From NCBI GenBank assembly GCA_945871085.1, contig CAMBVX010000006.1, forward strand, positions 1-52,045: a stretch of DNA of 52,045 nt, read 5' to 3'. Both the position numbers and the translations under genes were made by a program. Under the pieces are notes generated by a model. The model was not told where the DNA came from. It saw only the letters and a list, made by a program, of their open reading frames with translations, and ran no database searches. Positions within the stretch are counted from its first letter, which is position 1, and each line of letters starts with the position of its first letter. Shown here piece by piece: positions 33,311 to 51,194 of the stretch. Source of the stretch: Opitutus sp. GAS368 (GTDB lineage Bacteria > Verrucomicrobiota > Verrucomicrobiia > Opitutales > Opitutaceae).

Positions 33311-33333
33311 GTCGCGGGGTGGGGACTTGCTTG

Positions 33334-33564: not shown

Positions 33565-33613
33565 GGCTCGGGCGGATTTGCGGAACGGGCAAGCGATGCC
33601 GACGGGCCGCAGC

Positions 33614-35183: not shown

Positions 35184-35339
35184 TAAGAAGAGGGGCGACG
35201 ACGTGAATCAATCAGAACTAGCCGGAATGGTCTGCCTGCGTGATCTCCGCGTGGACGAGGATGAATTCACCCGCCGCCGGAGGTGAACCCTGCTAGCGGC
35301 ACCTCCGAGGCAGTCGGGAAAAATATGCGCAGGCGGGTT

Positions 35340-35777
35340 TCACAACCCGTGCTTCGCGCGATTTCTTGAGCGGATTTCTTCCAAGGCGATGAGGAGGCCC
35401 AGCGCTTGTCCTGCGGTCAGGCGTGCCGGGTGAAAACTCGAGCTGGCGGAATAGCGATAGAGAACCTCCTGCCTTATCGCCGCCAAATCCACGTCACCCA
35501 TGGCCCAACCCGGGAATGTCCTTTCGGTGACCGCGCGGTATTCAATCAGAGTAATGTTTTTGTGGCGCTTATCCCGATGGAAATTGGCGTTGAGTTGGTT
35601 CACGGCGGCCGCGGGGCCCTCGATCACTTGAAGAAACTGGGTCGCATCGAAGCACAGAAATCCGGTGATTTGGTTCAACGGGTTCGTCTTTTCGGCCAAA
35701 CGGATGATGTCCCGAATTAACTCCAAGCTGGAGAGGACGGCCGACTCGCTGCAATAAATCAAACGGACAAGGTTCAT
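35340..35777 (-). CDS. BLUF-domain blue-light photoreceptor protein
   Basis: Product of 145 residues: an N-terminal BLUF domain (about 1-95) plus a short C-terminal helical cap. BLUF domains bind FAD and switch hydrogen bonding on blue light. The key residues are all present: Tyr8 (L-I-Y), Asn32 (N-x4-I-T-G), Gln50 in F-L-Q-V-I-E-G, and Trp91 and Met93 in F-P-G-W-A-M. The R-D-K-R-H loop is also typical. There is no attached EAL, GGDEF or cyclase domain, so the output must go through a separate partner. It stands alone, with 500 bases of repeat-containing DNA upstream. Confidence 0.93.
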   Translation of the reverse strand: MNLVRLIYCSESAVLSSLELIRDIIRLAEKTNPLNQITGFLCFDATQFLQVIEGPAAAVNQLNANFHRDKRHKNITLIEYRAVTERTFPGWAMGDVDLAAIRQEVLYRYSASSSFHPARLTAGQALGLLIALEEIRSRNRAKHGL

Positions 35778-36022
35778 GGTGGGTAAACTAGGGTGAGGTG
35801 GTGACGGGCACAGAAAAGGTGAACCGCGTGAGAAACTCAGTTTTTACGAGTGGAGGAACGGATTCATTCGGTCAGCATCTTGGCGGGATTGGACGCAGAG
35901 TGCATTTACCTAGGACCCATGCTGCGGGCTTGAGGTGAAATCGGACGTGGGGACAGGCAAGCGCATCGATGGGTGAGTATCGGCACGGGGCGCGTGGTCT
36001 TGAGGGAAAATCAACGGGCGTT

Positions 36023-36033
36023 GGGGGGGGGGG
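36023..36033. repeat. Homopolymeric run of 11 G
   Basis: Eleven consecutive G residues lie in the ~500-base gap 35778-36277, upstream of the BLUF gene on the opposite strand. The rest of this gap holds a REPIN-like inverted pair (36121-36184) and no recognisable gene. Such a tract is prone to slippage and to sequencing error. Confidence 0.8.
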
Positions 36034-36120
36034 CGTCCGCGCAGAGGATTTGGAATTGGTGGAGAAGCAGCCCCCGCGGACATCGCGTTAGACCGAGCGC
36101 CGCAAGTGTTCGGACTTTGG

Positions 36121-36184
36121 GTAGCGGCAGGCGTCCGTGCCTGCCGGCACTCGAAATCGGCAGGCGCGGACGCCTGCCGCTACA
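36121..36184. repeat. REPIN-like inverted pair of REP hairpins
   Basis: Two hairpins of CGGCAGGC-6-GCCTGCCG (36125-36146 and 36158-36179) are separated by 11 bases and bounded by outward GTAG (36121) and CTAC (36180-36183). This head-to-head arrangement with GTAG feet is the hallmark of REPINs mobilised by RAYT transposases. It lies in the intergenic region downstream of the AarF-kinase gene. Confidence 0.9.
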
Positions 36185-36277
36185 ACTGCGAAACGTCCAA
36201 TTCTCAAGGGACGTTGGTCTCACCAGGTGCCGAGCCGGATCGCTCCTCGCGGGGAGGGGAAGCGGTTCGGCCCACCG

Positions 36278-37834
36278 CTACGCGAGCCAGACGCGCACGA
36301 GCTTGGCGCCGTCAGCGAGTGAGAACAATTCGCCCGGGGCGTAGCGGCGGCGTTTGGCGTCGGCGGCGATCGTAACCAGATTGATCGCACGCTCGGCGAG
36401 CCGGCTGCGCAACTCGTGCGGGACCAAGTCGGGCAAGTTATCCGTCGCGCCGGCGCCGAAGGTGAGGGCGACTTTCGTGGTGCCGTTTTCGACGACGCAG
36501 ATGTGGAGGGTTTCGGAAAGCATGGGTGGGGAGGGTGGAAGAGTAGCGGCAGGCGTCCCTGCCTGCCGTTCCGAAAATTCCCGATCCCCACAGGCACGGA
36601 GGCCTGTGGCTACGCCGGAGGCCGCGGCCCAGTCCACGGGCGCATCGAGAATTTTCAGGTAGTGGAGGAGGCCCTGAAACGCGCGGAGAATAAAAATCAT
36701 CTCGGGTGGGCCGGCGGTGCGGAACGTCATGCGGTCGTCGCCGAGAGCTTCGCCGAGGCGCTCGCGTAGGTGCCACTGCGCGACGTCGAATTTTCCCGGG
36801 GTCGTGAACGGCGTGGTGAGCGCGGCACCGACGGCCGGGAGTTTGGCGGCCAAGCGGGCCAAGACGGCGGGATCGAAGCCCATCTGAATAAAACGCGCCC
36901 GGATGCTGTCGGCATCCGGCGTGCCCGTAAGCGCATCGTCCACCAGCCCGCGGATCGCGGCTTGGATGGGTGGCGGCACGTGTTTGACGCAGCCAAAGTC
37001 GAGGAGACCGACCGTGGGGCGACCGTCGATGTGCAGGAAGCGATAGTTGCCGGGATGCGGGTCGGCGTGGAGCAGGCCCCACGCAAAGACGCCGGTGAAA
37101 AAAAGTTCGACGAGGCTGGCCGACAGGGCGGCGCGGTCGGCGGCGGGCCAGAGTCGCGCGGTGGCGAGCGACTCGCCTTGCAGCCACGTGGTGGTGAGGA
37201 GATGTTGGCCGCTCAAGGCAGGCACGACAGTGGGCAGGGCGATCGTGGAACGTAGGGTGCGCCCGAGCTCGCCGAAGCGGGTGAGCGAGGCGGCTTCGCA
37301 GCGGTAGTCGAGCTCGCGGCGGAGGGATTCACCGATCTCTGCGCGATACGCCTTGAGGTCGAAGCCGCGGCGGAGATCGCCGACGGGGGCCGTGAGCCAG
37401 CCGAGGGCGCGGAGGTCGAACTCGACCGTATCCGCAATTCCGGGATGCTGGATCTTGACGGCGACGGTGCGGCCGTCGAGGAGGGTGGCGCGATGGACCT
37501 GACCGATGGAGGCGGAGATGCCGACCGGGGCGAAGGCGGAGAAAAAAATGTCGAGTGGACCGCCGAGTTGGCGCGCGACTTCGGCGCGGGCGGCGGGGGC
37601 GGAGAGCGTGGGCTCGTTTTCGGTGAGCCTGGTGAACACGGGATCGGACGCCTCGATTTCGCTGAAGGCGAGGAGCTGGCCGATTTTCTGCGGAAGCCCG
37701 TGCAGCAGGCCGAGCCGGTCGACGAGGCGGCGGCGGGCGACGTCGCGGGCGGGCCCCGGGCGCCGCGCACGAACGCCGGCCAGATCACGCGCGAGGAGGC
37801 CGAGTTGGGCGGTGCGTTTTAGGGTGGCATTCAT
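36278..37834 (-). CDS. AarF/ABC1/UbiB-family atypical kinase with a REP-encoded linker and an extra C-terminal domain
   Basis: Product of 518 residues from the ATG at 37834; an ATG at 37906 would overlap hemA. The ABC1 kinase core has K-I-G-Q (the KxGQ motif), V-A-V-K-I-Q-H-P-G, R-R-E-L-D-Y, H-A-D-P-H-P-G-N and L-L-D-F-G, so ATP binding looks intact. UbiB-type kinases support quinone or lipid homeostasis. After the kinase core (about residue 405) the frame crosses a REPIN-like repeat encoding S-G-V-A-T-G-L-R-A-C-G and E-R-Q-A-G-T-P-A-A-T. It then enters an 80-residue domain (M-L-S-E-T-L-H-I-C-V-V-E-N-G). That domain may originally have been a separate gene (36278-36523) or a native C-terminal domain; no stop separates the two parts now. 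It follows hemA by 31 bases. Confidence 0.85.
   Translation of the reverse strand: MNATLKRTAQLGLLARDLAGVRARRPGPARDVARRRLVDRLGLLHGLPQKIGQLLAFSEIEASDPVFTRLTENEPTLSAPAARAEVARQLGGPLDIFFSAFAPVGISASIGQVHRATLLDGRTVAVKIQHPGIADTVEFDLRALGWLTAPVGDLRRGFDLKAYRAEIGESLRRELDYRCEAASLTRFGELGRTLRSTIALPTVVPALSGQHLLTTTWLQGESLATARLWPAADRAALSASLVELFFTGVFAWGLLHADPHPGNYRFLHIDGRPTVGLLDFGCVKHVPPPIQAAIRGLVDDALTGTPDADSIRARFIQMGFDPAVLARLAAKLPAVGAALTTPFTTPGKFDVAQWHLRERLGEALGDDRMTFRTAGPPEMIFILRAFQGLLHYLKILDAPVDWAAASGVATGLRACGDREFSERQAGTPAATLPPSPPMLSETLHICVVENGTTKVALTFGAGATDNLPDLVPHELRSRLAERAINLVTIAADAKRRRYAPGELFSLADGAKLVRVWLA
36544..36614. repeat. REPIN-like repeat inside the AarF-kinase reading frame
   Basis: Hairpin CGGCAGGC-6-GCCTGCCG (36547-36568) and hairpin CCACAGGC-6-GCCTGTGG (36588-36609) are bounded by outward GTAG (36544) and CTAC (36610-36613). 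The whole element is translated in frame as the linker of the kinase gene on the minus strand. Confidence 0.9.
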
Positions 37835-37865
37835 CGCACGGCTGATGGGTGGGGCCGCTGGGCGC

Positions 37866-39188
37866 TCAGGCGTGGTCTCGCGCCCAGCGCCGCAAGCCGC
37901 GCGCATGGCCGGTGAGCAGGCGTTGAAACGTGTGGTTCAGGAAACGTTCGAGTTTGGCGGTATCGGCCGCCGGGCCGTGGGCGAAGCTCTGGGCCGCTTC
38001 GTGGCTCAGGGCTTGGGCGGCCAGAAAGAGTTTCTTGAGGAGACCTTCGACGGGATGGCTGGCGCACCAGACATCCCACGCGGCCAGTTCTTCGGCGACG
38101 ATAACCTCCACGGCGGGCACGGCCGCGCGCCGCGCGGTGAGGGCGAGCTCCTGCCGCCCACGGAGCGTGTCGATGTTGAGGACTTCGTAACTGGAGCCCG
38201 TGGCGATGTTGCGCGGCACGCCGGCGTCGAGCAGCAAGGGCCGCGAGTTGGCCGGGAGGGTGTCCAGCAACTCGCGGGTGAGCACGGGCGCACGGCAGGC
38301 GGTGGCCGCGATGATAAAATCAGCTTGAGCGAGAGTGGCGGGCAGGGCGGCCCAATCGCTGACGCAGCCAGCGCAGTCTTGGGCTAGCGACTCGGCGCGG
38401 GCGCGAGTGCGGTTGATGAACGTGAGTGAGCGGTGGCCGCCCTTCGCGAGGTGACGGGCGATGTCGCGGGCAATATCGCCCGCACCAATGATCAGCACGC
38501 GGGGCGACTGGCCGGCGGCGCGCAGGGGGATTTCCCGCTCGGTGACGAGGGCGGCGATGGCGGAGCCGAGGCTGGCCGAGCCGCGGCCGATGGCGGTATC
38601 GTGGCGGGCGCGCTTGGCGGCCCGCAGTGCTTGGACGACGGTGTGCTGGAGCCAGGAGCCGAGGGTCCCGGCCTGTTCGGCGAGGCGCAGGGCCGTTTTG
38701 ACCTGACCGAGAATCTGCGTGTCGCCGAGGATCGCGGAGTCCAATCCGCAGGTGACGCGCAACAGGTGTCGTGCGGCACGGGAGCCGGATTCCTGATAGC
38801 GCTGACATTGTGCGTGGAGAATGTGGGCGTGGGGCCGCAGTGTGCGCACGGCAGTCAGCAGCGGGTCAACGGCCGGCACGTGGGCGGGAGCGGCGACGTA
38901 GAATTCAGTGCGGTTGCAGGTTGAGAGCACGAGCAGTTCAAGGTCGGGCGATGCGGCGGTAAAGGTGCGCATCAACGCGACGGCTTCCTCGGCGGTGAAC
39001 GTGAGGGATTCGCGGACGGCCACCGGAGCCGTGCGAAAGCTGACCCCGAGGAGATGCAGTTCCTTGCGCGCAGCGTCGGCGGGGGGGAGACGGCAGGCAG
39101 GGAGGCCTGCCGCTACGCCGGAGGGATCGGTGGAGGAACGGCAGGCAGGGACGCCTGCCGCGATGGGGTCGTCCAGGGTGGGTCTCAC
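37866..39188 (-). CDS. hemA: Glutamyl-tRNA reductase with a REP-derived N-terminal extension
   Basis: Product of 440 residues from GTG 39188, whose GTGA overlaps the TGA of the upstream gene. HemA reduces Glu-tRNA to glutamate-1-semialdehyde, the first committed step of haem synthesis. Core motifs are L-G-V-S-F-R-T-A-P-V, the catalytic Cys91 in L-S-T-C-N-R-T-E, L-D-S-A-I-L-G-D-T-Q-I-L-G-Q-V-K and the NADPH site I-G-A-G-D-I-A-R. In E. coli the catalytic residue is Cys50, so this protein is about 41 residues longer at the front. That extra part is exactly the stretch encoded by two REP hairpins (A-A-G-V-P-A-C-R and A-A-G-L-P-A-C-R). No ATG, GTG or TTG occurs between the repeats and the conserved core, so 39188 is the nearest standard start. 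The other in-frame candidate (39404) lies deeper in the upstream gene. Confidence 0.92.
   Translation of the reverse strand: MRPTLDDPIAAGVPACRSSTDPSGVAAGLPACRLPPADAARKELHLLGVSFRTAPVAVRESLTFTAEEAVALMRTFTAASPDLELLVLSTCNRTEFYVAAPAHVPAVDPLLTAVRTLRPHAHILHAQCQRYQESGSRAARHLLRVTCGLDSAILGDTQILGQVKTALRLAEQAGTLGSWLQHTVVQALRAAKRARHDTAIGRGSASLGSAIAALVTEREIPLRAAGQSPRVLIIGAGDIARDIARHLAKGGHRSLTFINRTRARAESLAQDCAGCVSDWAALPATLAQADFIIAATACRAPVLTRELLDTLPANSRPLLLDAGVPRNIATGSSYEVLNIDTLRGRQELALTARRAAVPAVEVIVAEELAAWDVWCASHPVEGLLKKLFLAAQALSHEAAQSFAHGPAADTAKLERFLNHTFQRLLTGHARGLRRWARDHA
39091..39160. repeat. Two REP hairpins forming the 5' end of hemA
   Basis: Hairpins CGGCAGGC-6-GCCTGCCG lie at 39091-39112 (loop AGGGAG, followed by CTAC) and 39139-39160 (loop AGGGAC, followed by CGAT rather than CTAC). 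They are in the same orientation, 26 bases apart, and both are inside the hemA reading frame. Confidence 0.9.
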
Positions 39189-39928
39189 GAAAACGAAGAA
39201 CCCACCGGGATAAACGAGCGCGGGCCGAAATAGTCGATGTAGCGCGCGGACCAGTGGCTCCACTGGCGGCCTTCGTCGCCTTTCCAGGCGTGATAGTGCC
39301 GCACGCAGCTTTCGTAGAGCGCTTGGGCGGGGACGAGCGTGTCGGCGGCCGGGTCGCCCAGCTCGAGGGAGAAATGGGTTTTCTCGTGCTGATACTCCGA
39401 CCACGGGCAGACATACAGGCGCACGCGGTCGAGCCGACCATCGACCCGGCCGTCGAGGCGGCGATCCTCGAGAATCAGATCAAGGCGATCACGTTTGCTG
39501 GGGTCCCCGAGCACTTTGCGGCCAAAGGAAAGGGTGAGCCCTTCGTATTGGGCTTCGGCCGAAGCGTGGTTGTGATAAAATGTGAAGACCATCAGCGCAG
39601 GGTCGGCGAGGAGTTCGTTGACGAAGCTCTGATAGTTCGCCGGCACCAATGGCAGGAGGTGAGTGAGGAGCGGCGTAACCGGGGCGAAATAGTCCGGGTC
39701 GTCCCGTTGATTTTGCACGTGAGTGCGAAAGACATTGAGGCCGTATTTATTCCAAGCGCGCGACCAGCCCAGGCCCTTGCCCTGGCGTTGCTGTTCGAGG
39801 GCGTTCATGATTTTCCGCAACAGCCAGTTGGGGCGCTGTTGCAGGTTCAGCTCGCGCATGAGGGCGGGCAGTGAGAGATCCTCGACACGGAGCGAGTCGG
39901 CATCGAGGGGGAGAGTGGCGGTGGACAT
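39185..39928 (-). CDS. Protein of unknown function upstream of hemA
   Basis: Product of 247 residues, not recognised. It is hydrophilic with no signal peptide or membrane segment and contains many aromatic residues: N-W-L-L-R-K-I-M-N-A-L-E-Q-Q, L-G-W-S-R-A-W-N-K-Y-G, P-A-N-Y-Q-S-F-V-N-E-L-L, F-T-F-Y-H-N-H and F-G-P-R-S-F-I-P at the end. The Arg/Asp-rich R-L-D-G-R-V-D-G-R-L-D-R-V-R repeat (about 155-170) is distinctive. Its stop overlaps the hemA GTG by 4 bases, implying translational coupling, so a role near haem synthesis or its control is possible. A REP hairpin lies 45 bases upstream of its start. Confidence 0.8.
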   Translation of the reverse strand: MSTATLPLDADSLRVEDLSLPALMRELNLQQRPNWLLRKIMNALEQQRQGKGLGWSRAWNKYGLNVFRTHVQNQRDDPDYFAPVTPLLTHLLPLVPANYQSFVNELLADPALMVFTFYHNHASAEAQYEGLTLSFGRKVLGDPSKRDRLDLILEDRRLDGRVDGRLDRVRLYVCPWSEYQHEKTHFSLELGDPAADTLVPAQALYESCVRHYHAWKGDEGRQWSHWSARYIDYFGPRSFIPVGSSFS

Positions 39929-39972
39929 GTAGGGGCGTGAGCGGGACGGAAATCATCGAGCGAGACACGGGA

Positions 39973-39998
39973 CGGCAGGCACGGAGGCCTGCCGCTAC
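39973..39998. repeat. Single REP hairpin
   Basis: CGGCAGGC-6-GCCTGCCG (39973-39994, loop ACGGAG) is followed by CTAC at 39995-39998. It lies 10 bases after the stop of the chemoreceptor gene (read leftward) and 45 bases before the unknown gene, a typical REP position at a transcript end, where it could also stabilise the mRNA. Confidence 0.88.
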
Positions 39999-40008
39999 CC
40001 GAACCTCG

Positions 40009-42450
40009 TCACTTCTTGAGATTGGCTCCGTCGACAATCGTCTTGAGGGTGGCGGAGAGCTTGGCGAGTTCCTGGGCGGCGGAGAGGGTGTTGTTGGCGC
40101 CCTCCGTCGTGCTCTTCGCGGCCGTCGAGACGTTGGTGATATTTTTCGAGATCTCGGTGCTGCCCTTGGCGGCTTCGGTGGCATTGCGGGCGATCTCGTT
40201 GGTCGTGGCCGACTGCTCTTCCACGGCGCTGGCGATGGTGTTGGAGATGTCGTTGATCTGGCCGATGACCTTGGCGATTTCGGCGATGGCCGTGACGGCC
40301 CGCTTGGTGTCGCCCTGAATCGCCTCGATCTTGCCGCTGATGTCTTCGGTGGCGGCGGCGGTTTGTTTGGCGAGTTCCTTGACCTCGTTGGCGACGACCG
40401 CGAAGCCCTTGCCGGCCTCACCGGCGCGAGCTGCCTCGATGGTGGCGTTGAGCGCGAGGAGGTTGGTCTGCTGGGCGATGGACGTGATGACCTTGATGAC
40501 CTTGCCGATCTCGATGGAGCTCTCCCCGAGTTTGGCGACGGTCTTGTTGGTGTCTTCGGCGACTTTCACGGCGGAGGTCGCGACGCGGGCGGCGTCGTTG
40601 GCGTTCTTGGCGATTTCCTTGACGGAAGCACTCATCTCTTCGGCCGAGGTGGCGACAGTGGCGACGTTCTTCGAGACCTGCTCGGAGGCGGCGGCGACGA
40701 CGTTGGATTGGGCGGAAGTTTCCTCGGAGTTAGAACTCATCTGCTGGGCGACCGCAGAAAGTTCCTCCGAAGCCGAGGCGAGGGACTGAGCGGTCGACCC
40801 GACGGAATCCAAGGTGACCTTGAGGCTCGCCGTGACGGCCAGTTCGCGTTTTTCGGCGGCCAGCTTCTCGGTGATGACGGACCACGTGGCCATGGAGCCG
40901 AGGAAGTTTTTGTTGCTGTCGTAGATGGGGCTGACGAGGAGATCGAGGGTCTCGGGACCGACCTGGATGTGGGCGGTCCGGGGCAGGTTCTTCGGGTCGG
41001 CGAGCACTCCGCGCTGATAACTGGGGTTTTTGTGGAAGACGTCGATGTTCTGGCCGACCATCTTGTCCACCGAGACCGGCAGGTATTGCTGGATCGTGCG
41101 CAGCGTCCGGGTGGAGGCCGGATTGATGTAGCGGATCGCCAGATCCTTGTCGGCAAACATGATGTTAACCGGGGCCTGATCCATCATGGAAATGATGCGG
41201 GCCATCTCGACGTCGGTGCGGAGTTTTTCGGTGATGACGGACCACGTGACCATGGAGCCGAGGAAGACCTTGTTGTGATCGTAAATCGGGCTGACGAGGA
41301 GATCGAGGGTCTCGGGGCCGACGACGATATTGGCCTTGCGGGGGAGATTTTTCGGATCGGCGAGGAGACCGCGTTGGTAGCTGGGGTTCTTGTGGAAGAT
41401 GTCGATGTTCTGGCCGAGCATCTTATCCGCAGAAATGGGCAAGTATTGCTGGATCGTCTTGAGCGTCGCGACGGACGCGGGATTGATGTAGCGAATGATC
41501 AAATCCTTGTCGGCGAACATGAGGTTCGTCGGTGAATTATCGTTCATCGAGGCATACCGTTGGTTGACCAACTGGAGGGCCTTGGCCGCGGTGGTTTCGG
41601 TGGCGAACTTCACGACCTTGGAAGGCACGCCGTCGGCGTCAAAAACAGGGTTGTAGCTGGCTTGGATCCAGACCTCTTTCCCTCCTTTGCCGATACGCTT
41701 GTATTCGGCGGCCTGGAATCGGCCCGCCGCGAGATCGCTCCAGAATTGGCGGTACTCCGCACTTTCGCGGTAGGCTGGTTCGACGAACATGCTGTGGTGC
41801 CGGCCTTGGATTTCTTCGAGGGTGTAGCCGAGCGTTTTGAGAAAGTTCTCATTCGCGTCCAGAATGGTGCCGTCGAGCTCGAATTCGATGACGGCTTGCG
41901 ATTTGCTGATCGCGTCCATCTTGCCTTGGAGATCGGCGAGTTGGGCAGAAGTATCATGGTCGATTGCGGCAACGACGGGGGCAACACGGGGAGCAGCCTT
42001 CTTGGCGAGGCGATTGGTGGGAGCGATAGCTTTCATGGATTTCGAATTCGGGGCACTGGGAGTGGGAGTGTTAACAATAGCAGCGGCGAGCGGACCAACC
42101 GCGGACATGACTTCGGCAATGAGGGCCTTGGAAACGCCCAGGGCTTTCAACGTGGAGGCAAGATGGAGGGCGACCTGGCCGAAATGTTTTTCCTGGATGG
42201 GGAAACGGGCGTGGGCGCGTTTCATCTCCGGACCTTTGTAGATCGCGGGGCCGCCGAGGGCGGTGGTGAAAAAAGCCTTCTGCTGTTTTTTCATCCGCAC
42301 CATGTCGGTTTTTTTGAAGAACTCGAGGAGCAGGGGATCGGCGAGCACGCGGACGTAGAAATGTTCGACGGCGGCGTCGATGGACGCGGCCCCGCCAAGG
42401 CGGGCGAACAGGGAGGTGGCGCTGACGGTGGACATATCGGGTGAGATCAT
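40009..42450 (-). CDS. Soluble chemoreceptor: truncated haemoglobin - PAS - PAS - PAS - MCP signalling domain
   Basis: Product of 813 residues with no transmembrane segment. Residues ~12-127 are a group-I truncated (2/2) haemoglobin: F-A-R-L-G-G at 15-20, distal Tyr32 (B10), Met53 (E7) and Gln57 (E11), L-G-G-P, and proximal His80 in M-K-R-A-H-A-R. A Pro/Lys linker (~128-165) follows, then PAS1 (~186-290). Two near-identical PAS repeats lie at 307-410 and 427-530 (F-A-D-K-D-L-x-I-R-Y-I-N-P-A-S and [12 protein letters not shown] in both). The MCP hairpin is at ~690-735 ([15 protein letters not shown]). No C-terminal docking pentapeptide is seen. The start overlaps the stand-alone globin stop (ATGA). 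It is likely a cytoplasmic haem-based O2/NO or redox receptor feeding the CheA/CheW encoded here. Confidence 0.93.
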
Positions 42451-42851
42451 GGATTGGAGGTGGCTGGGGTGTTGACGATGTCGGCGGCGAGTGACCCGAC
42501 GGCGGTCATGACCGCAGTGATGAGATCGGCGGGCACGGTGAGGGCCGCCAGTGTTTCGCGGAGGTGAGTGGCGATGAAGTTGAAGTGGCTTTCCTCGATG
42601 GAGAACCGGGCATGGGCCCGCTTCATGGCGGCGCCCTGATAGACGGCTGGTCCACCCAGCGCTGTGCTGAAGAAATCTTTGCCGTGTTTTTTCAGGACTG
42701 GCATGTTTACGTGGGCGTAAAAGTCCCGCAGTCGCACGTCCGCGAGCACGCGGAGATAAAATTGTTCAACGGCGGCGTCGATGGCCGCGGCACCGCCGAG
42801 GCGGGCGAACAGGGATGGGGTGCTGGACAGGGGGATTTCGGTCGCAGTCAT
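42447..42851 (-). CDS. Stand-alone truncated (2/2) haemoglobin
   Basis: Product of 134 residues, a group-I-like truncated haemoglobin clearly paralogous to the N-terminal domain of the next gene. [14 protein letters not shown] (15-28), distal Tyr32, [11 protein letters not shown] and proximal His80 in M-K-R-A-H-A-R are present. The distal helix differs from its sister: Leu53 (E7), His56 and Gly57 (E11) replace Met, Gln and Gln. Such globins bind O2 or NO. Start 42851 is set by homology. It ends in an ATGA overlap with the chemoreceptor, so the two are co-translated. It may buffer or scavenge the ligand that the receptor senses, or be an ancestral copy from which the fusion arose. Confidence 0.93.
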
Positions 42852-42962
42852 GGGTCGATGAGTAAGTTCGGCTGATCGGAGAGGATCTTTAGCGATTCTT
42901 TGATTTAATTTTTGGCCGAGGGAGCGAAGTGGTGCCGGCCGCACGCATCGGGCGGATACTGG

Positions 42963-43032
42963 TGTCGCGGCCGCGTCCCTGCCTGCTGGGCCGGGAAACT
43001 CGAACCCCACAGGCGCGGAGGCCGGTGGCGAC
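42963..43032. repeat. Degenerate REPIN-like remnant
   Basis: The stretch retains GCGTCCCTGCCTGC (half of the first hairpin) and CCACAGGC-6-GCCGGTGG (43007-43028, one arm mismatch) with a decayed foot. It occupies the 291-base gap between the small membrane gene and the stand-alone globin. Otherwise this gap contains no recognisable gene. Confidence 0.65.
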
Positions 43033-43142
43033 GCGAGCAGCGCGGCCCAGCAACCGTCACGATCCGGAGGATACAGCGGGCGCGAAAAAAAGCGGCCACC
43101 GGTACAGCACCGCCGCGGCCGGCCGCACACGGACGACGGCCG

Positions 43143-43378: not shown

Positions 43379-43840
43379 TCAGGCGACTTTCGTCAGTCCG
43401 GCGGATGTTTTTTCGTGCAAGTCCACGGTCTGATCCGTGTCGATGATGAGCAACAACCGGTCTTTGAGTTTGTAGACGCCGCGCACGATTTGGCGGGCGG
43501 CACCGGTGAGCGTTTCGGGCGGGCGCTCGTAGGTGCTTTCATCCACCTCGAGCACGTCGCCGATGTCATCGACGAGCAGGCTCACCGCGCCGTCGTCCGT
43601 GCGAACGACGACGTTCATGGGGAGTTGGTCGGCCGGCCGTTCGGTCAGCACCAAGCGACGGCGGAGATCAATGGCGGTGACGATTTGGCCGCGCAAATTA
43701 ATGAGACCGCTCACGACGGGCGACGCGAGGGGCACGCGGGTCATTTCCTGAAAGCGGATAACTTCTTGGACGCGCAGGACATCAACGCCGAAGAACAAGC
43801 CATCGACGTAGAAAGTGCAGAATTGATTGTTAGTGCTCAT
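43379..43840 (-). CDS. cheW: Chemotaxis coupling protein CheW
   Basis: Product of 153 residues. CheW links receptors to CheA in the array. Family features are F-Y-V-D-G-L-F-F-G-V-D-V-L-R-V-Q-E-V-I, then V-S-G-L-I-N-L-R-G-Q-I-V-T-A-I-D-L-R-R-R-L, and V-S-L-L-V-D-D-I-G-D-V-L-E-V-D near the end. The P-L-A-S-P-V receptor and CheA-contact loop is also present. It is 40 bases downstream of cheA and 2 bases before the small membrane protein. Confidence 0.94.
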   Translation of the reverse strand: MSTNNQFCTFYVDGLFFGVDVLRVQEVIRFQEMTRVPLASPVVSGLINLRGQIVTAIDLRRRLVLTERPADQLPMNVVVRTDDGAVSLLVDDIGDVLEVDESTYERPPETLTGAARQIVRGVYKLKDRLLLIIDTDQTVDLHEKTSAGLTKVA

Positions 43841-43880: not shown

Positions 43881-46187
43881 TTAGGCGGCGAGGGAGGCGT
43901 GGGCTTCGGCGGCGCGAACGAGTCCGGGCACATCGAGCAAATCGGTGACGCGGTCCTGCACGACCGCAGAACCGAGGATGCCTTGCGACGCGGAGGCGCG
44001 CTTGATCGTGACGGACTCGTTCACAATGTCGTTGATCTGACTGACGACCAAACCGTAGCTGCGGCCCTGCTCGGCGTAGACGACGACCTGCAGAATATCA
44101 GACGGTTCGTCTGGCGTGACCCGGCCGGCCACGTGGTCGGCCACACGAATGAGCGGGAGAATCTGGCCCCGATACTGCACGACTTCCGTAGCGCCGGTGC
44201 GCTCGACGCGGGAAACGGGGAATTCTTCGAGGCGGGCGGCGAGCGCCAAGGGGATCGCCATGCGGCGGTCTTTGCCGACGCTGAAGAGGAGGAGGGTCTG
44301 ACGCTGGTCGGCGTCGGATTGGGCGCGGGCCTTGGTATCGATGACCGGGCGATCGCGGGTCTCGGTGACGACGTTGGCGTGCTGCGCCAAGCCGACGACA
44401 TCGAGAATCAGGGCGACGCGGCCGTCGCCCATGATGGTGGCACCGGCGAAACTGGAAATGCCTTTGAGTTGTTTCCCGAGCGGCTTGACGACGATTTCCT
44501 CGGTATCGTTGATTTCGTCGACCACGAGGCCGAAGGGGCGACCGTCGGCCTGCAGCACGATGATGTTGATAACATCGTCCATGGCTTGGGCGGCATTTTT
44601 TGGCACCCCGGCCTTCACCTTAAACTGTTGGTTGAGGTAAGCGAGGGGGAGCAGGTGGCCGCGCAAGCGATAAACGGCCGCGCCGTAAAGTTGTTCGATC
44701 CCTTTGCGGGCTTGGGTGCCTTCGAGTCGCACCAGCTCGAGCAGGCTGACCTGAGGGATGGCGTAGCGATCACCGCCGCTGGTGACGATCAGGGCGGGGA
44801 TGATCGCGAGGGTCAGCGGGATCTTGATTTTCAGGGTGGTGCCCTGGCCGGGTTGCGACTGGAGGTCGATCGAGCCGCCGATTTTCTCGATATTGGTTTT
44901 CACGACATCCATGCCGACGCCGCGGCCGGAGACGTTCGTGATTTTGTCTGCGGTGGAGAGACCCGGGAGGAAAATCAGGTTGAGGGCCTCGCGTTCGGTG
45001 AGTCGCGCGGATTGTTCGGCGGTGATGAGATGCTGGGCAACCGCCTTGGCTTTCACGCGGTCGAGGTTGATGCCGCCGCCGTCATCCATGATCTCGATGT
45101 TGACCTGGCCGCCCTCGTGATACGCGCGCAGGGAGAGAAGCCCTTCCTCCGCTTTGCCGACGCTGAGCCGCTTGGCGGGCGACTCGATGCCGTGGTCGAT
45201 GGAGTTACGGACGATGTGGGTGAGGGGATCTTTGATCGCTTCGATGATGGTGCGGTCGAGCTCGGTGGTTTGACCGGCCATGACGAGGCGCACCTTCTTG
45301 TTCAGCTCGTGGGAGACATCGCGCACGATGCGGGGAAATTTTCCCCAGACGTTGCCGATGGGCTGCATCCGGGTTTTCATGACGCTCTCTTGGAGTTCGG
45401 TGGTGATGATGTTGAGCCGTTGGGCGGCGGTCATAAGCGCGGCCTGATCAAACTGCGTCGTGTTCGCCACGATTTGATTGCGGGCCAAGACGAGCTCGCC
45501 GACCAAGTTCATCACCTTGTCGAGTTGGGAAATGTCCACCCGGATGGCATTGTCGGCCACGCTGGACTTGCCGGCCACTTCAACGGAGGCGCTGGCGGAA
45601 ACGGGGGGCGCTGCGTGGAGGGTGGTGGGGGTGGGCGCGTCGCTGGATGCCTGCACGCTCGCGGGTGCGGTCATGACGACCGCGCCGGCGACTTCGGGCG
45701 CGACCGCTAGGACGGCCACGACGGGCTCATCATCGTCAAAGAGACCGAAGACAGGTTTTTCAACGGGAGCGGGCGCGGCCGCGATGGCGGGAGCGACTTG
45801 GAGTTGAACTAATTTGGCGAGCAAAGCGGAGTGGTCGGAGGTGCCGTCGGTGCCGGTGGCCTCGAGGGTGCGCAGCATACCGCGCAGCGCGTCGGACAGC
45901 GCGAGGAGCGTTGTGATCATCTCCGGGGTGGAGTGGAGCTTGCCGTCGCGCAAGAGACTGAGGAGGTCTTCGCCGACATGCGCGGTGTGTTCAATGTGGC
46001 CCAGACCGAGGCAGCCGGCCGTGCCCTTCAGCGTGTGGATGACGCGGAAAATATTGTTCATCGAATCCGGACCGGTCTGGCCCTGTTCGAGGGCGAGCAG
46101 TTCGCGGTCGAAACGGTCGAGGCCTTCGTGGCTTTCGAGCAAGAGGTCTTTGACGAGTTCCTGTTGCAGAGTTTCGTTGATGGCCAT
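43881..46187 (-). CDS. cheA: Chemotaxis histidine kinase CheA with two CheW-like domains
   Basis: Product of 768 residues. The P1 Hpt domain has the phospho-accepting His51 in V-I-H-T-L-K-G-T-A-G. An Ala/Val/Pro-rich linker (~130-200) replaces a clear P2 CheY-docking domain. P3 dimerisation begins at I-S-Q-L-D-K-V-M-N-L-V-G-E-L-V. The P4 ATPase carries R-N-S-I-D-H-G-I-E, D-D-G-G-G-I and G-R-G-V-G-M-D-V-V. Two CheW-like regulatory domains follow (around R-Y-A-I-P-Q-V-S-L and F-S-V-G-K-D-R-R-M-A-I-P), instead of one as in E. coli. It sits between cheY2 and cheW and is the central kinase of the cluster. Confidence 0.95.
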   Translation of the reverse strand: MAINETLQQELVKDLLLESHEGLDRFDRELLALEQGQTGPDSMNNIFRVIHTLKGTAGCLGLGHIEHTAHVGEDLLSLLRDGKLHSTPEMITTLLALSDALRGMLRTLEATGTDGTSDHSALLAKLVQLQVAPAIAAAPAPVEKPVFGLFDDDEPVVAVLAVAPEVAGAVVMTAPASVQASSDAPTPTTLHAAPPVSASASVEVAGKSSVADNAIRVDISQLDKVMNLVGELVLARNQIVANTTQFDQAALMTAAQRLNIITTELQESVMKTRMQPIGNVWGKFPRIVRDVSHELNKKVRLVMAGQTTELDRTIIEAIKDPLTHIVRNSIDHGIESPAKRLSVGKAEEGLLSLRAYHEGGQVNIEIMDDGGGINLDRVKAKAVAQHLITAEQSARLTEREALNLIFLPGLSTADKITNVSGRGVGMDVVKTNIEKIGGSIDLQSQPGQGTTLKIKIPLTLAIIPALIVTSGGDRYAIPQVSLLELVRLEGTQARKGIEQLYGAAVYRLRGHLLPLAYLNQQFKVKAGVPKNAAQAMDDVINIIVLQADGRPFGLVVDEINDTEEIVVKPLGKQLKGISSFAGATIMGDGRVALILDVVGLAQHANVVTETRDRPVIDTKARAQSDADQRQTLLLFSVGKDRRMAIPLALAARLEEFPVSRVERTGATEVVQYRGQILPLIRVADHVAGRVTPDEPSDILQVVVYAEQGRSYGLVVSQINDIVNESVTIKRASASQGILGSAVVQDRVTDLLDVPGLVRAAEAHASLAA

Positions 46188-46201: not shown

Positions 46202-46570
46202 TTAGGCGGGCAGGACTTTGGCGACGATCGCGAGGAGTTGTTCTTGGCTAAACGGTTTGACGATCCAGCCCGTGGCTCCCGCGGCTCGACCGAGCATTTT
46301 TTTGGCGGGATCGGACTCGGTGGTGAGCAAAATGATCGGAGTGCGGGCGAAGGCCGGCAGCGCGCGCAACTGGCGCGTGAGCTCGAGGCCATCCATGTTG
46401 GGCATGTTGACGTCGGTGAGGACGAGATCCACGGGGCGCTGGCGGAGCACGGTGAGGGCTTCCACGCCATCGCCCGCTTCAAACACTTCGTGGCCGGCAC
46501 CCTTCAAAGTGAAGGCGACCATTTTTCGCATGGTGGCGGCGTCGTCCACGGTGATGATTTTCTTACTCAT
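46202..46570 (-). CDS. cheY: CheY-like single-domain response regulator (second copy)
   Basis: Product of 122 residues: a lone receiver domain with the acidic pocket V-D-D (residues 8-10), phospho-Asp53 in L-T-D-V-N-M-P-N-M-D-G, conserved Thr83 and Lys105 in V-K-P-F. There is no output domain. It is 14 bases upstream of cheA. With the other cheY of the cluster it suggests division of labour, one acting as output and one as a phosphate sink, but which is which cannot be told from sequence. Confidence 0.93.
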   Translation of the reverse strand: MSKKIITVDDAATMRKMVAFTLKGAGHEVFEAGDGVEALTVLRQRPVDLVLTDVNMPNMDGLELTRQLRALPAFARTPIILLTTESDPAKKMLGRAAGATGWIVKPFSQEQLLAIVAKVLPA

Positions 46571-46747: not shown

Positions 46748-48772
46748 TCAGGCAGAAAGGCGTTGATCGGGATTCGCTGGATCCGCCGGCATGGCGGATG
46801 GAGCCGATGGAGGGTCGAGCCACAGATCAACGACGGGCGCCGGGGACGGTGTCGCGGGAGGTGTGGCGGGGCTGGGACAGAGAGAGTCGAAGCCGAAGAG
46901 CTCGATGTCGCCTTGGGCGGGGGGGGCGCCGTCGGAACCGAACAAATCGACGTCTCCGGTGACCGGCTGGGCGGCCACAGGAGGAGCCGCTAAGCCCAAG
47001 GCTTGGCGGTGCACCGCCCCTTCCGAAGCCATCGTGTAGTAAGTGAAAAAATGGTCGGTCAAGCCGGTCAGCTCGACGGTGAGACCCGAGTGGTCTGCGG
47101 CGGATCGGGCGGCGGCGGTGAGTCCGGACACGGCGGCCTGGAGCTGGGCCAAGGGCTCATGCGCGATCTTGACGAAATCGGCCTGCTCGGTGGCCGTGCG
47201 CGTCTGGGCCTCCAGTTGCGGTAACAGTTCGCCGATGCTGTGCAGCACTTTCAGCGCACTGTCCCGATAGTCATGCAGGCCGGCCGTGTTCCCCTGGGCA
47301 GCGGTCAGCAGTGTTTGGTTGAATGCACGGCTGCGCTCACGAATGCCGCCGAATGCGATCACGATTTGATTCAGCCCGGTGGTGAGGGAGTCGAGTTCGA
47401 CGCCTAGGCTCGCGCTGAGCCGGCTTGTTTCCCGAGAAATCGCACTCGTCTGCGCCGAGAGAATGTCGAGCCCGGTGCCTTGTCCGACGTGGGCGGACTG
47501 CACTTCGGCGTTGAGGCCGATGAGTTGAATTTCAAACGCGAGATTCCGGATGAAGCGCGTGAAGTGTGACGTCATCCGCCCCACGGGCTCGATGGTTTGG
47601 TGGGATTCGGTGGCGAAGTCCTCTGCTTCACCGACGAGCCGTTGCACATCGGCGAGAGAGTCGAGGAGGATCTGGATGGCCCCGTCGACGCCAGTGGTCA
47701 CGTTGTCGAGGTCACGCAAGGCGATGCAGTCACCGTCCAGTGCGGCCATCTGCTGGATGATACCCTGCAATCCGGCGCTGAGTGTCGCGCCCGCTTGAGC
47801 GAATTCGGTATCCATCGTCGCGATTTGCGCGACGCACACTTGACCGGACTGCTGGAGAAAGCGGAGGGTGCGGCCGGCGGCGGCGCGATCAGGAGACAGG
47901 GCGGAAACGCCGGTCTCCATCTCCGCCAGAATCTTGCGCGTGTGCTGCAGCTTTTGGGTAAAAATGTCGAAGAACTGCAGTGACATGACGACGCGCCCCG
48001 TTTCCGTGGCGACAGTTTTGCTGACGTCGGCGAGGCGGGTGTCGCGATCCCGATTCTTTTCGTAGCCGGCCTTCATTTGCGTGAGGGATCGCGTCAAATG
48101 AGTGCGGAGCGCGGCGACGGATTGTTTTGCCTCTACGGCCTTTTTGCCGAGTTGAGCGATGGCCCGCTGCAAGATGCCCTGAATGTCGCGAATGAGTTGA
48201 AATTTATCGCGAAACTCGGCTTCGACCTGTTGGCGCACGCGCTCGATTTCCAGGGCGAGCGCCTGAAACATGGTCTGCACTTCGGGGGCAAGGGCGGCCG
48301 ATTCGATACGAAAGAGTGTCTGCACGTAGGTGAGCGGTGCCAACGTGCGCGCTAAGTCCTGCTCGGCCCCGAGCGCGTGCTCAATTTGCGCGGTGATGGC
48401 GTGGAGCTGGGTAACGAGCGCGGCGGTCGCGCCCACGTTGCCCTCGACGAATTCGATGCCGCGCCAGATCTGCTCAGCGGTCGCCTCGATCAGGATTTCG
48501 CCGCCGCCTTGGCCAAGGGCCAAAGCGATCAGGCCCTCGCCGTGGTTGACGAGTTCCTGTCCGGTGTTGGTGGTGCGCTCCACGGTATTGCTGACCTCGA
48601 TGAAGCGGGCCTCGATTTCCCCCATGACCTGATCCAGCTCGGCGGTCGCCGCCCGGATCTGAGCGAGATGGGGTGGCAATTCCCGGCGCAGGCGCGACGA
48701 GAACGGCAAGTAGCGCGCACAGCGTCGGGCTAATTTTTTCCGCCAAGCTTGGGTTTGCGCGACGAGCCTCAT
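46748..48772 (-). CDS. Sensor-less MCP-like coiled-coil protein of the chemotaxis cluster
   Basis: Product of 674 residues from ATG 48772 (ATGA overlap with the cheR stop). It is almost entirely helical and Ala/Gln/Leu-rich, with no membrane or sensory domain. A segment at about 411-450 (I-Q-L-I-G-L-N-A-E-V-Q-S-A-H-V-G) resembles the signalling hairpin tip of chemoreceptors. A helix at 264-280 reads S-L-Q-F-F-D-I-F-T-Q, with Asp269 and Gln273 spaced as in the CheZ phosphatase active site. The Pro/Ala-rich C-tail carries repeated short acidic motifs: G-D-V-D-L-F-G, G-D-I-E-L-F-G and V-V-D-L-W-L-D. Its operon place between cheR and cheY2 makes a core chemotaxis role likely; possible roles are adaptor, receptor-like scaffold or CheY phosphatase. 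Confidence 0.8.
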   Translation of the reverse strand: MRLVAQTQAWRKKLARRCARYLPFSSRLRRELPPHLAQIRAATAELDQVMGEIEARFIEVSNTVERTTNTGQELVNHGEGLIALALGQGGGEILIEATAEQIWRGIEFVEGNVGATAALVTQLHAITAQIEHALGAEQDLARTLAPLTYVQTLFRIESAALAPEVQTMFQALALEIERVRQQVEAEFRDKFQLIRDIQGILQRAIAQLGKKAVEAKQSVAALRTHLTRSLTQMKAGYEKNRDRDTRLADVSKTVATETGRVVMSLQFFDIFTQKLQHTRKILAEMETGVSALSPDRAAAGRTLRFLQQSGQVCVAQIATMDTEFAQAGATLSAGLQGIIQQMAALDGDCIALRDLDNVTTGVDGAIQILLDSLADVQRLVGEAEDFATESHQTIEPVGRMTSHFTRFIRNLAFEIQLIGLNAEVQSAHVGQGTGLDILSAQTSAISRETSRLSASLGVELDSLTTGLNQIVIAFGGIRERSRAFNQTLLTAAQGNTAGLHDYRDSALKVLHSIGELLPQLEAQTRTATEQADFVKIAHEPLAQLQAAVSGLTAAARSAADHSGLTVELTGLTDHFFTYYTMASEGAVHRQALGLAAPPVAAQPVTGDVDLFGSDGAPPAQGDIELFGFDSLCPSPATPPATPSPAPVVDLWLDPPSAPSAMPADPANPDQRLSA

Positions 48773-49608
48773 GGTTTGGCGGCGGTCGCGACGTGCTGGT
48801 AAACCGTCGTATTGCCATGGGAGACGGCCGCCCACGCGGGATCGAGGTTGAGCGTCGTTTCCGCGGTGCCCAGAAAGAGGGAGCCTTGCGGTTGAAGACA
48901 GGCACGGATTTTTTTCAAAATGGCCTGTTTGGTCGGAACATCGAAATAGATCATGACATTGCGGATGAGCACGATGTCGAACGGAGGGAAAATGGGCCAC
49001 GGCTCGATCAGATTCATGGCGCGAAACTCGATGCCCTGCTTGAGCTCGTCCTTCACGATCCAGCGGTCGCCTTGTTTCTGGAAATATTTGAACAGCAGAG
49101 GAGCGGGCAGGCCACGGTTGACCTCAAATTGATTGTAACTCCCGGTCCGGGCCTGGGCGAGCACGGTGGGTGAAAGATCGGTGGCGAGAATGGAGACGTT
49201 CCATTGGGCGAGTTGCGGGAAGTTTTCCCGCAAGAGCATCGCCAAGGTATAGGGTTCCTGCCCGGTCGAGCACGCGGCCGACCAGATCGTGAGTTTGCGC
49301 AGGTGGGCCCGCTGCTCGAGCAGGCGCGGGATAATGGTTTTCCGCAGCGCCTCGAAGGGTTGGAAGTCGCGGAAGAAAAATGTTTCGTTGGTCGTCAGCG
49401 CGTCGATCGTCTTCGAATGGAGCGCGCTGGAGGCCGGACTTTTCTGCATCAGGGCGATCAGCTCGCCGAGGTTTTTGCAGCCCTGGCTGTGGATGAGCGG
49501 AGCTAATCGCGACTCGATGAAATATTCTTTGCCGGGGTCGATCACGATGGCTGCGCTGCGTTTCGCAAAGTCGCGCACGTAGGCAAATTCTAGAGTGGAG
49601 ATGGCCAT
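48769..49608 (-). CDS. cheR: Chemotaxis protein methyltransferase CheR
   Basis: Product of 279 residues. CheR methylates receptor Glu side chains with S-adenosylmethionine. Family features are the helical N-terminal domain, then T-T-N-E-T-F-F-F-R-D (about 92-101), the SAM motif W-S-A-A-C-S-T-G-Q-E-P-Y-T-L-A-M, I-L-A-T-D-L-S, and I-R-N-V-M-I-Y-F-D near residue 217. L-F-L-G-T-A-E-T comes near the end. It lies 16 bases downstream of cheB and overlaps the MCP-like gene by 4 bases. Confidence 0.96.
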   Translation of the reverse strand: MAISTLEFAYVRDFAKRSAAIVIDPGKEYFIESRLAPLIHSQGCKNLGELIALMQKSPASSALHSKTIDALTTNETFFFRDFQPFEALRKTIIPRLLEQRAHLRKLTIWSAACSTGQEPYTLAMLLRENFPQLAQWNVSILATDLSPTVLAQARTGSYNQFEVNRGLPAPLLFKYFQKQGDRWIVKDELKQGIEFRAMNLIEPWPIFPPFDIVLIRNVMIYFDVPTKQAILKKIRACLQPQGSLFLGTAETTLNLDPAWAAVSHGNTTVYQHVATAAKP

Positions 49609-49624: not shown

Positions 49625-50713
49625 TTAGGTCAGGCGAGAGGAGCCGAGGTGGAAGCGACGCATGACTTCACCGCCTAATTGCGGCAGGGGCAGGACCTTT
49701 TCGGCGAGGCCTGCTTGCGCGACGTAACCGGGCATGCCCCAGACGACGCTCGTGGCTTCGTCTTGGGCCAAGGCCCGCCCGCCGCGTTCGCGGATATGCT
49801 GGCAGCCGCGCAAACCGTCCTGCCCCATGCCCGTCATGATGAGCGCGAGAATGGATGAGCCGTAGACGTTCGCGACACTCCGGAACAGCACATCCACGGC
49901 GGGGCGGCAGGAATTTTCCGGGGGTTCGTTGTGCAGGCGGATTCGCACCAGCAGACCTTCGCGGCGGACCTCCATGTGGCGACCGCCGGGGGCAATATAG
50001 ACACTGCCCGGTTCGACCAACTGACCCTCTTCGCCCTCGTAAAATTTATTGGGAGAATTTTTCCCCAGGCGTTCGGCGAGCATCTTCGTGAAGAGCGGGG
50101 GCATATGCTGCACGATCACGGTGGGCACGGGCAGAGCGCTGGTGATGTCGGAAAAAAGGGCGGCGAGCGCATTGGGGCCGCCGGTGGAGCAGCCGATCGC
50201 GAAGACTTGGGGGACGGCGGTGCTGGCCGGCGGCGGAGCGAGTTTGATGCCATGTGCGCCGGTCGAGCTGGGGAGCGTCGCGACGCTGGCAGTGGGTGGT
50301 AGAATCACCCGACAGTGCAGCTTGATTTTGGGAATCAGTTCAGATTTTAGCCGCTCGATTCCCTCCATGACATTACCGACGTTGGCCGGTTTGGTCACGT
50401 AGTCGGTCGCCCCGGCCGCGAGTGCATCCAAGGTGCTGCCGGCCCCCCGCATGGTCAACGTGCTGAACATGATCACGGGGAGCTTGGGGTAGGTCTTGCG
50501 GAGCTCGCGCACCGTCTGCAACCCGTCCATCTCGGGCATCTCGACGTCCATCGTGATGAGGTCGGGATTGACCTGCGGGATTTTCTGCAGGGCGATTTTT
50601 CCGTTCGCGGCGGATCCGACGACTTCGATATCGGGATCGGAGCTGAGGGCTTCGGTGATCATTCGCCGGATCACGACGGCGTCATCGACAATCAACACAC
50701 GGATGCGGGGCAT
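49625..50713 (-). CDS. cheB: Chemotaxis response regulator / protein-glutamate methylesterase CheB
   Basis: Product of 362 residues from ATG 50713; an alternative at 50749 would overlap cheY by 17 bases. The receiver domain has V-D-D at 9-11, phospho-Asp56 in T-M-D-V-E-M-P-E-M-D-G and a T-K-P switch. The methylesterase domain shows the Ser-His-Asp triad in I-G-C-S-T-G-G-P, V-Q-H-M-P-P and M-G-Q-D-G. CheB removes methyl groups from receptors and, with CheR, provides adaptation. The presence of both argues that receptors of this cluster are methylated, although the globin receptor lacks the C-terminal docking pentapeptide. Confidence 0.95.
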   Translation of the reverse strand: MPRIRVLIVDDAVVIRRMITEALSSDPDIEVVGSAANGKIALQKIPQVNPDLITMDVEMPEMDGLQTVRELRKTYPKLPVIMFSTLTMRGAGSTLDALAAGATDYVTKPANVGNVMEGIERLKSELIPKIKLHCRVILPPTASVATLPSSTGAHGIKLAPPPASTAVPQVFAIGCSTGGPNALAALFSDITSALPVPTVIVQHMPPLFTKMLAERLGKNSPNKFYEGEEGQLVEPGSVYIAPGGRHMEVRREGLLVRIRLHNEPPENSCRPAVDVLFRSVANVYGSSILALIMTGMGQDGLRGCQHIRERGGRALAQDEATSVVWGMPGYVAQAGLAEKVLPLPQLGGEVMRRFHLGSSRLT

Positions 50714-50732
50714 GGATGGGGCGGTTGGGCGG

Positions 50733-51101
50733 TTAAGCAATGGCGCCAAGGACTTGGAGTTTATCCCGGAGCATTTCCTCGGTCATGGGCTTCATCAAAA
50801 AATCCGTGGCCCCGGCCTCGAGGGCCTGACCGATATCCTCCATGGTATTGTGCGACGTAATCATGAGGATCTTCATCTCCGCGTAGGCCGGATTGGTGCG
50901 CACGGCCTTAACGAAATCTAGTCCGCACATCCGCGGCATGTCCCAGTCGACGAGCACCAAGTCCAACGGCAGATTTTTTTCCAACTGCTCGATGCCTTGA
51001 ATGCCGTCCTCCGCCTCCAAGATATTGCTGGTGAATTCGAGGAGATAGGACGCCAAGAGCTTCCGCATGGTGCGGGAGTCATCGATCACGAGAATTTTCA
51101 T
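50733..51101 (-). CDS. cheY: CheY-like response regulator, first gene of the chemotaxis cluster
   Basis: Product of 122 residues from ATG 51101; an in-frame ATG further up (51170) is unlikely because it adds a 23-residue non-family leader. The receiver pocket V-I-D-D is at 5-8, phospho-Asp52 sits in L-V-D-W-D-M-P-R-M-C-G, and Lys is in L-M-K-P-M. The W-D-M-P variant is typical of flagellar CheY proteins, hinting that this one may be the motor-binding output. It is 19 bases upstream of cheB and preceded by a possible sigma-28-type promoter. Confidence 0.94.
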   Translation of the reverse strand: MKILVIDDSRTMRKLLASYLLEFTSNILEAEDGIQGIEQLEKNLPLDLVLVDWDMPRMCGLDFVKAVRTNPAYAEMKILMITSHNTMEDIGQALEAGATDFLMKPMTEEMLRDKLQVLGAIA

Positions 51102-51194
51102 TTTATAAGAGTGTGGAGGTGCTTTTCTGAGCGGCCTTGAGTCCGCACCGAAAACGCTACCCGCAGGCAACCTGCAGGATTCGCTGTTTCCTTT

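Follow-up and report, generated by a model that had tools for sequence, protein, structure and literature searches.

In the genome of Opitutus sp. GAS368, one gene encodes a chemoreceptor that begins with a truncated (2/2) group-I haemoglobin and continues through three PAS domains to a methyl-accepting signalling hairpin. This is probably an Aer2-type gas or redox chemoreceptor of the cytoplasm that has acquired the truncated haemoglobin at its N-terminus and could hold up to three haems. The window, by which we mean the whole 52,045-nucleotide stretch of DNA that was analysed, also carries che genes and a divergent glutamyl-tRNA reductase (Table 1). A preliminary description of this DNA had placed a globin receptor here and left its strand unstated; the frame is present, on the minus strand.

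Table 1. Receptor, domains and neighbouring genes in the window, in order of position.
Feature	Position	Strand	Basis
AarF/UbiB (ABC1) kinase-like protein	36278..37906	minus	Pfam, comparison
Second, divergent glutamyl-tRNA reductase (homologous part), motif STCNR kept	37866..39059	minus	TIGR01035, tree
Conserved 247-aa protein, no known family	39185..39928	minus	Alignment, tblastn
Chimeric chemoreceptor ORF, 813 aa	40009..42450	minus	Pfam, PDB sequence comparison
MCP signalling domain, residues 615-780	40111..40608	minus	Pfam
PAS3, residues 418-530, Aer2-type haem-PAS candidate, His473 and Trp523	40861..41199	minus	PDB sequence search, motif
PAS2, residues 300-406, Aer2-type haem-PAS candidate, His353 and Trp403	41233..41553	minus	PDB sequence search, motif
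PAS1, residues 182-292; nearest solved 3ewk (listed as Sensor protein) and E. coli-type Aer 8dik	41575..41907	minus	Pfam, PDB sequence search
Truncated (2/2) group-I globin domain, residues 13-127; Tyr32 (B10), Gln57 (E11), His80 (F8)	42070..42414	minus	Pfam, PDB alignment, model
Stand-alone truncated globin, 134 aa; Tyr B10, Gly E11, His F8	42447..42851	minus	Pfam, alignment
cheW	43379..43840	minus	Pfam
cheA	43881..46187	minus	Pfam
cheY-type single receiver	46202..46570	minus	Pfam
750-aa ORF without known family, true start probably internal	46748..49000	minus	Pfam, tblastn
cheR	48769..49608	minus	Pfam
cheB	49625..50749	minus	Pfam
Second single receiver	50733..51170	minus	Pfam

The truncated globin and its receptor

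The preliminary description had assigned residues 12-127 to a group-I truncated haemoglobin and proposed a profile search. That search gave a significant match of residues 13-126 to Bac_globin (PF01152; E 7.2e-22, 78.3 bits against a cut-off of 21), and the globin domain scanned alone reached 82.5 bits. The closest PDB sequence is Mycobacterium tuberculosis HbN (1idr, E 8.9e-26; 42-45% identity). Receptor residues 32, 57 and 80 align with HbN positions 33, 58 and 81, which we take to be Tyr B10, Gln E11 and His F8 (for the first two, structure titles carry these names as well), in agreement with the residues first named. An AlphaFold model of residues 1-137, built from a ten-row alignment, has a mean pLDDT of 88.7, and its top Foldseek match is again HbN (TM 0.83 by query, 0.89 by target). 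In VIA-align, the model gives Z scores of 19.8-22.2 with HbN, 12.1-21.5 with other group-I globins and at most 18.0 with group II; rows of 3/3 globins score 11.2 or less. HemAT is absent among the Foldseek and VIA-align matches listed, which we did not count as evidence. As modelled, then, the fused globin has the group-I 2/2 fold.

The Pfam family of the 3/3 sensor globins, Protoglobin (PF11563), scores 15.5 bits over 48 residues where its cut-off is 25, and it stays below that cut-off in relatives too (L023, 22.5 bits; L052, 17.3; L050, 13.1). NCBIfam has no truncated-globin match to either globin of the window, the best being a flavohaemoprotein model at 12 bits. The fused globin is a group-I 2/2 globin and not a 3/3 sensor globin, so the difference in class from HemAT that had been pointed out earlier stands.

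Pfam places MCPsignal at residues 615-780 (E 4.2e-34) and several PAS families between it and the globin, which bears out the three PAS domains and signalling hairpin read from the letters. A linker of about residues 127-165 follows the globin, the boundaries of the PAS domains are approximate, and the tip of the hairpin is E672. By its MCPsignal domain and che-gene context the protein is a methyl-accepting chemoreceptor. No membrane helix is evident, again as described before: the hydrophobic peak (1.69) is globin helix H, and the highest 19-residue mean elsewhere is 0.98, so that the receptor looks soluble. A model of the full-length receptor was unusable (mean pLDDT 44, five-row alignment) and gives no inter-domain geometry. 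A promoter and terminator scan returned one promoter-like site, which is on the plus strand; terminator-like sites were about as frequent as in shuffled sequence.

The stand-alone globin gene overlaps the receptor start by ATGA, the coupling that had been reported, and its product is 59% identical to the fused globin. The fusion itself occurs in four genomes: that of the window (G000), G020 of the same family (labelled Opitutaceae), and two metagenome-assembled genomes that we call by the record labels of the bins holding L050 and L052, Pedosphaera and Actinomycetota respectively. The proteins of G000 (813 aa) and G020 (803 aa) are globin-PAS-PAS-PAS-MCP, that of L050 (698 aa from its likely ATG) is globin-PAS-PAS-MCP and that of L052 (752 aa) globin-PAS-GAF-MCP. 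Tyr B10, Gln E11 and His F8 are present in all four chimeras. Gln at E11 is also found in 37 of 45 other globins, a chosen list that includes two pairs of identical rows, and in none of three che-linked stand-alone globins, which have Gly, Val or Leu.

Aer2-like PAS domains and a proposed mechanism

PAS1 resembles two solved proteins, 3ewk, which we take to be MmoS, and 8dik; both are presumably flavin proteins, and from this likeness PAS1 is possibly a flavin PAS. For PAS2 (E 0.001) and PAS3 (E 0.01) the only PDB sequence matches are 6ceq, 3vol and 4hi4, all Aer2. Each has a histidine within the motif FHKNP and a tryptophan 50 residues later. The four chimeras have six Aer2-type PAS copies between them, and every one carries this pair at a spacing of 50-51 residues (49 in 3vol). 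We assume that this histidine corresponds to Aer2 H234 and the tryptophan to position 283, which fits the observed spacing. The available portion of a 2026 review states that Pseudomonas aeruginosa Aer2 binds haem b via H234 (PMC13401364), and accessible parts of other articles report that Aer2 haem is coordinated by a conserved His with O2 stabilised by Trp (PMC9855816) and that 6CEQ is Vibrio cholerae Aer2 (PMC8694187). PAS2 and PAS3, tandem copies with 80% DNA identity over 300 nt, are thus of Aer2 type by homology to the Aer2 haem-PAS and by the ligand-His and O2-site Trp positions. A regular expression for this pattern did not match the receptors of L093 and L095. The Aer2 nature of the two domains goes beyond what the preliminary description recorded.

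Both the PAS and the MCP parts of the receptor score with the Vibrio Aer2 equivalog model NF041847, at 257 bits against a cut-off of 1200 (L050, 173.5; L052, 151.8), a shortfall that we count against the Aer2-type reading. No HAMP family was detected by Pfam at E 1 in the receptor or in four relatives scanned. On these sequence comparisons, the receptor has an Aer2-like core but is no Aer2 equivalog, and the globin accordingly appears as an addition to a receptor of haem-PAS type. Both PAS2 and PAS3 have the positions of the haem-binding His and of the Trp at the O2 site, so that as many as three haems may sit in one receptor.

In the mechanism that we propose, PAS2 and PAS3 probably hold haem b and the globin would bind haem as well. 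Binding of O2 and/or NO, or a change in haem redox state, would alter kinase output through the MCP hairpin, which is expected to control the CheA encoded beside the receptor. The globin could sense directly, or it could set the local O2 or NO that PAS2 and PAS3 meet. Haem supply might be supported by the neighbouring glutamyl-tRNA reductase. A dedicated haem-, gas- or redox-sensing array had been proposed from the sequence alone; the two Aer2-type PAS domains and the neighbouring glutamyl-tRNA reductase paralogue now speak for it, and the array itself is still something that we infer.

Origin, neighbourhood and competing readings

A separate-gene form of the system exists in G064, placed by the classification tool in the genus of G020, where one cluster holds cheA, cheW, a gene for a free truncated globin of 126 aa and one for a 566-aa PAS-PAS-MCP receptor that has the His and Trp of Aer2 type. 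The N-terminus of this receptor, MKA...TNR, resembles a 10-residue stretch inside the linker of the window receptor, and L050 has AMKATPT there; the stretch is short and of simple composition, and weakly suggests that fusion put the globin ahead of what had been the start of a PAS-MCP protein. At L093 (7340-9741) of G119, which belongs to another family of the order, a PAS-MCP gene reaching the contig end is preceded, at a distance of some 60 bases, by a diverged truncated globin. Over residues 128-185, which take in the linker, A180 is the sole invariant position in five receptors, and A143 and A180 are the only ones in the four chimeras. Such weak conservation is unlike that of a rigid signalling helix and counts against our preferred reading.

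Globin trees bear on whether the fusion has a single origin. In a 52-row tree (49 loci were entered; L013 and L120 gave no match, and L003 was dropped as a duplicate of the gene of L024), seven che-linked globins fall on one side with support 47/89. When L093 and ten further rows, most of them on long branches, were removed, the six remaining che-linked globins are set apart from 35 others at 66/91, which is not strong. A constraint that groups the four chimeras by themselves was not rejected (p-AU 0.105).

Because the linker is hardly conserved and a separate-gene form exists, a serious rival is that sensing falls to the haem-PAS domains and that the globin assists them, as a tethered O2 carrier or NO dioxygenase controlling local O2 or NO. 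The HbN-like distal pocket with Tyr B10 and Gln E11 would suit this role, as would the free globin of the G064 cluster and the second, free copy in the window. We nevertheless hold it to be somewhat unlikely: retention of the covalent fusion in four genomes argues for more than mere presence, and no flavin- or NAD(P)H-dependent gene of globin-reductase type was recognised among the window proteins scanned. Within the Aer2-type reading that we prefer, too, the globin may be accessory rather than the main sensor.

Upstream of the globin-receptor pair, separated from the stand-alone globin by 527 bases, lie cheW, cheA, a receiver, the 750-aa ORF, cheR, cheB and a further receiver. All members of the cheW-cheA-cheY-cheR-cheB cluster described before are therefore present, together with an additional receiver gene. 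The output would be flagellar taxis, because the host genome has four Flagellin_N matches above cut-off. It could instead be something else, such as biofilm formation or development, since other outputs are known for some Che systems (PMC3447774, in its accessible part). The two single receivers would be compatible with such an output, as would the 750-aa ORF, which belongs to no known family and has counterparts at other che loci; set against the flagellin matches and a set comprising cheR, cheB, cheW, cheA and a cheY-type gene, we think it rather doubtful.

By tblastn, the 750-aa ORF has relatives at L049, L050, L051, L095, L096 and L097, six of the nine related loci that were compared. Near the che cluster there is also a BLUF blue-light sensor protein (35340-35777, minus strand; PF04940, E 3.1e-25). 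By eye, the product of 34209-35183 (minus strand) resembles a BNR-repeat or sialidase-type protein. Short palindromic repeats with the core GGCAGGC..GCCTGCCGCTAC are scattered over 32230-43040, with up to seven copies per family in the 16 kb searched and some within called ORFs.

On the other side of the receptor, the window glutamyl-tRNA reductase scores 236.1 bits with TIGR01035 against a cut-off of 209.55 and so belongs to this family; the cysteine of its STCNR motif is presumably the catalytic one. The host genome has another copy, on contig C2. Reductase genes at che loci occur in five of eight chosen genomes, and all five also carry another copy, although the che-locus protein of G485 lies under the family cut-off (200 vs 209.55 bits). 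In a 13-row tree, the five che-locus reductases split from the eight others with support 100/99; the program flags L157 (G485) for its long branch and the row of the window for its letter composition, and the split stays, at 100/100, after L157 is dropped. The 247-aa protein, 57-65% identical to relatives in three other loci, returned nothing notable from Pfam, NCBIfam or PDB; across the four loci aligned, the 247-250-aa proteins share invariant motifs including RQWSHWS and DYFGPR.

The reductase, the AarF gene and/or the 250-aa gene lie near all five che loci with an Aer2-type PAS receptor (L049, L050, L051, L052 and L094, defined by a che core and Aer2-type PAS at least 60% identical to the window's) and near none of three without one (L095, L096 and L097). 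The latter are a non-random set of further search matches or loci of the same genome; L051 and L096 share a genome, and the stretches are 12-20 kb. L093, at a contig end and with no che core, was excluded from this nine-locus comparison. All three genes are present in L050, L051 and L094. L049 has AarF and the 250-aa gene, and L052 has the reductase alone (28.5% identical). That no che-locus reductase was found in G020, and that L052 has only the reductase, we count against the preferred reading.

The distinct branch of the che-locus reductases, and the second copy in all five genomes that have one, could also mean that the receptor responds not to gas but to haem or to how its synthesis stands, so that the array would tune behaviour to haem supply. 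This we judge improbable, as Aer2 haem is a bound cofactor according to the accessible portions of PMC13401364 and PMC9855816, and as the reductase gene is missing from the che locus of G020.

The fusion is recurrent but rare. Our screen was a globin-domain search followed by open-frame length and the MCP hairpin motif. Short loci extend about 1.5 kb past the globin, so that L001 does not include the hairpin of the window receptor itself, and long proteins were screened by frame length; a diverged MCP could thus escape. Among relatives of the window genome, 19 of 141 had a globin match and two a fusion; a phylum sample gave 29 of 387, with the same two fused (G000 and G020). The relatives search listed eight further genomes of the genus to which the window belongs, all without the chimera. 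For the Actinomycetota-labelled bin, 20 of 346 genomes of its phylum (E 1e-12) and two of 58 of its order (E 1e-15) matched, the single fusion each time being that of the bin itself. The same holds for the class of the Pedosphaera-labelled bin (14 of 236 matched at E 1e-12, one fused, the bin itself), whose family has no other member in the collection. Most truncated globins found are unfused; this, and the lack of the chimera in those eight genomes of the genus, we also count against our preferred reading. A scan of genome contigs with two short patterns gave at least eight loci, at least three of them fused (L049, which is G020, L050 and L052), a lower bound limited by the two patterns. Viral contigs, scanned with a single sequence and hence only to the depth of close relatives, yielded nine candidate stretches, none of which was confirmed.

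The 642-aa frame of G767 (L114) was rejected as a chimera: its globin is near the C-terminal end of the ORF and it has no MCP hairpin motif. Longer truncated-globin ORFs in the phylum of G485 include two globin units in one frame (L115, G574) and globins with an extra N-terminal region (L119, G805; L129, G767).

The host assembly, a metagenome bin, has 630 contigs and 4.26% contamination, yet an assembly or frameshift artefact of this one bin is rejected as practically out of the question, given that the same fusion is an uninterrupted frame in four distinct genomes, each time among che genes. A wider reading, which we put forward tentatively and would not yet call probable, is that these loci form a distinct haem-based chemosensory class across Verrucomicrobiota and Actinomycetota. 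Its receptor, truncated-globin-coupled and multi-haem (globin and two PAS), would have Che proteins of its own, and a dedicated, diverged glutamyl-tRNA reductase would serve haem supply; the 2/2 globin would have been recruited first as a free protein and then fused.

Significance and relation to known systems

Truncated haemoglobins are widespread, with many of their roles unsettled. The globins of HemAT-type sensors are 3/3, and Aer2 uses haem-PAS domains. The fusion to a chemoreceptor, with its separate-gene relative, ties one truncated haemoglobin to signalling in a testable way. If the reading is true, chemoreception gains a second globin class, and a receptor with three haems would offer a clean way to study how a single molecule combines sensors that differ in affinity. 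The glutamyl-tRNA reductase linked to it hints at a sensory island dedicated to haem.

The preliminary description knew of no 2/2-globin chemoreceptor. Neither did our full-text literature search find one, its coverage being without the 2017 review of multidomain truncated haemoglobins (PubMed 28394017) that is likeliest to list one. There is none in the accessible portions of PMC3770913, PMC1592074, PMC7082302, PMC1457004, PMC3287990, PMC13401364, PMC8694187, PMC9855816, PMC12805357, PMC4648194, PMC8788690, PMC6710368 and PMC3680402, and the word 'truncated' is absent from the main text, as available, of the 2026 aerotaxis review (PMC13401364). The globin class, haem-PAS chemoreceptors and truncated-globin fusions are each known; in the literature covered we found no earlier description of their combination.

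With HbN the fused domain has in common the fold, Tyr B10, Gln E11 and His F8, whereas HbN is a single-domain protein and the window domain is part of a chemoreceptor. HbN is an NO dioxygenase. Like HemAT and other globin-coupled sensors, the window receptor has an N-terminal globin and an MCP output in one chain with no membrane helix, and sensing of O2 or another gas is likely common to both. The HemAT globin, however, is of the 3/3 sensor family, whereas that of the window is 2/2 group I, followed by a hardly conserved linker and with three PAS domains between globin and MCP. Truncated-haemoglobin chimeras with an antibiotic monooxygenase, a nitrate reductase or a protein kinase are known from the available part of PMC7082302; they join a 2/2 globin to a functional domain as the window receptor does, and none named there is a chemoreceptor. 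The Aer2 receptors of P. aeruginosa, Vibrio and Leptospira are homologous to PAS2 and PAS3 and have the haem-ligand His and O2-site Trp positions, and several haem-PAS domains per chain, as predicted for the window receptor, are described for V. vulnificus Aer2 in the accessible text of PMC13401364. Compared with Aer2, the window receptor shows no HAMP family in Pfam, falls far below the Aer2 model cut-off, and adds a truncated globin and an Aer-like PAS1.
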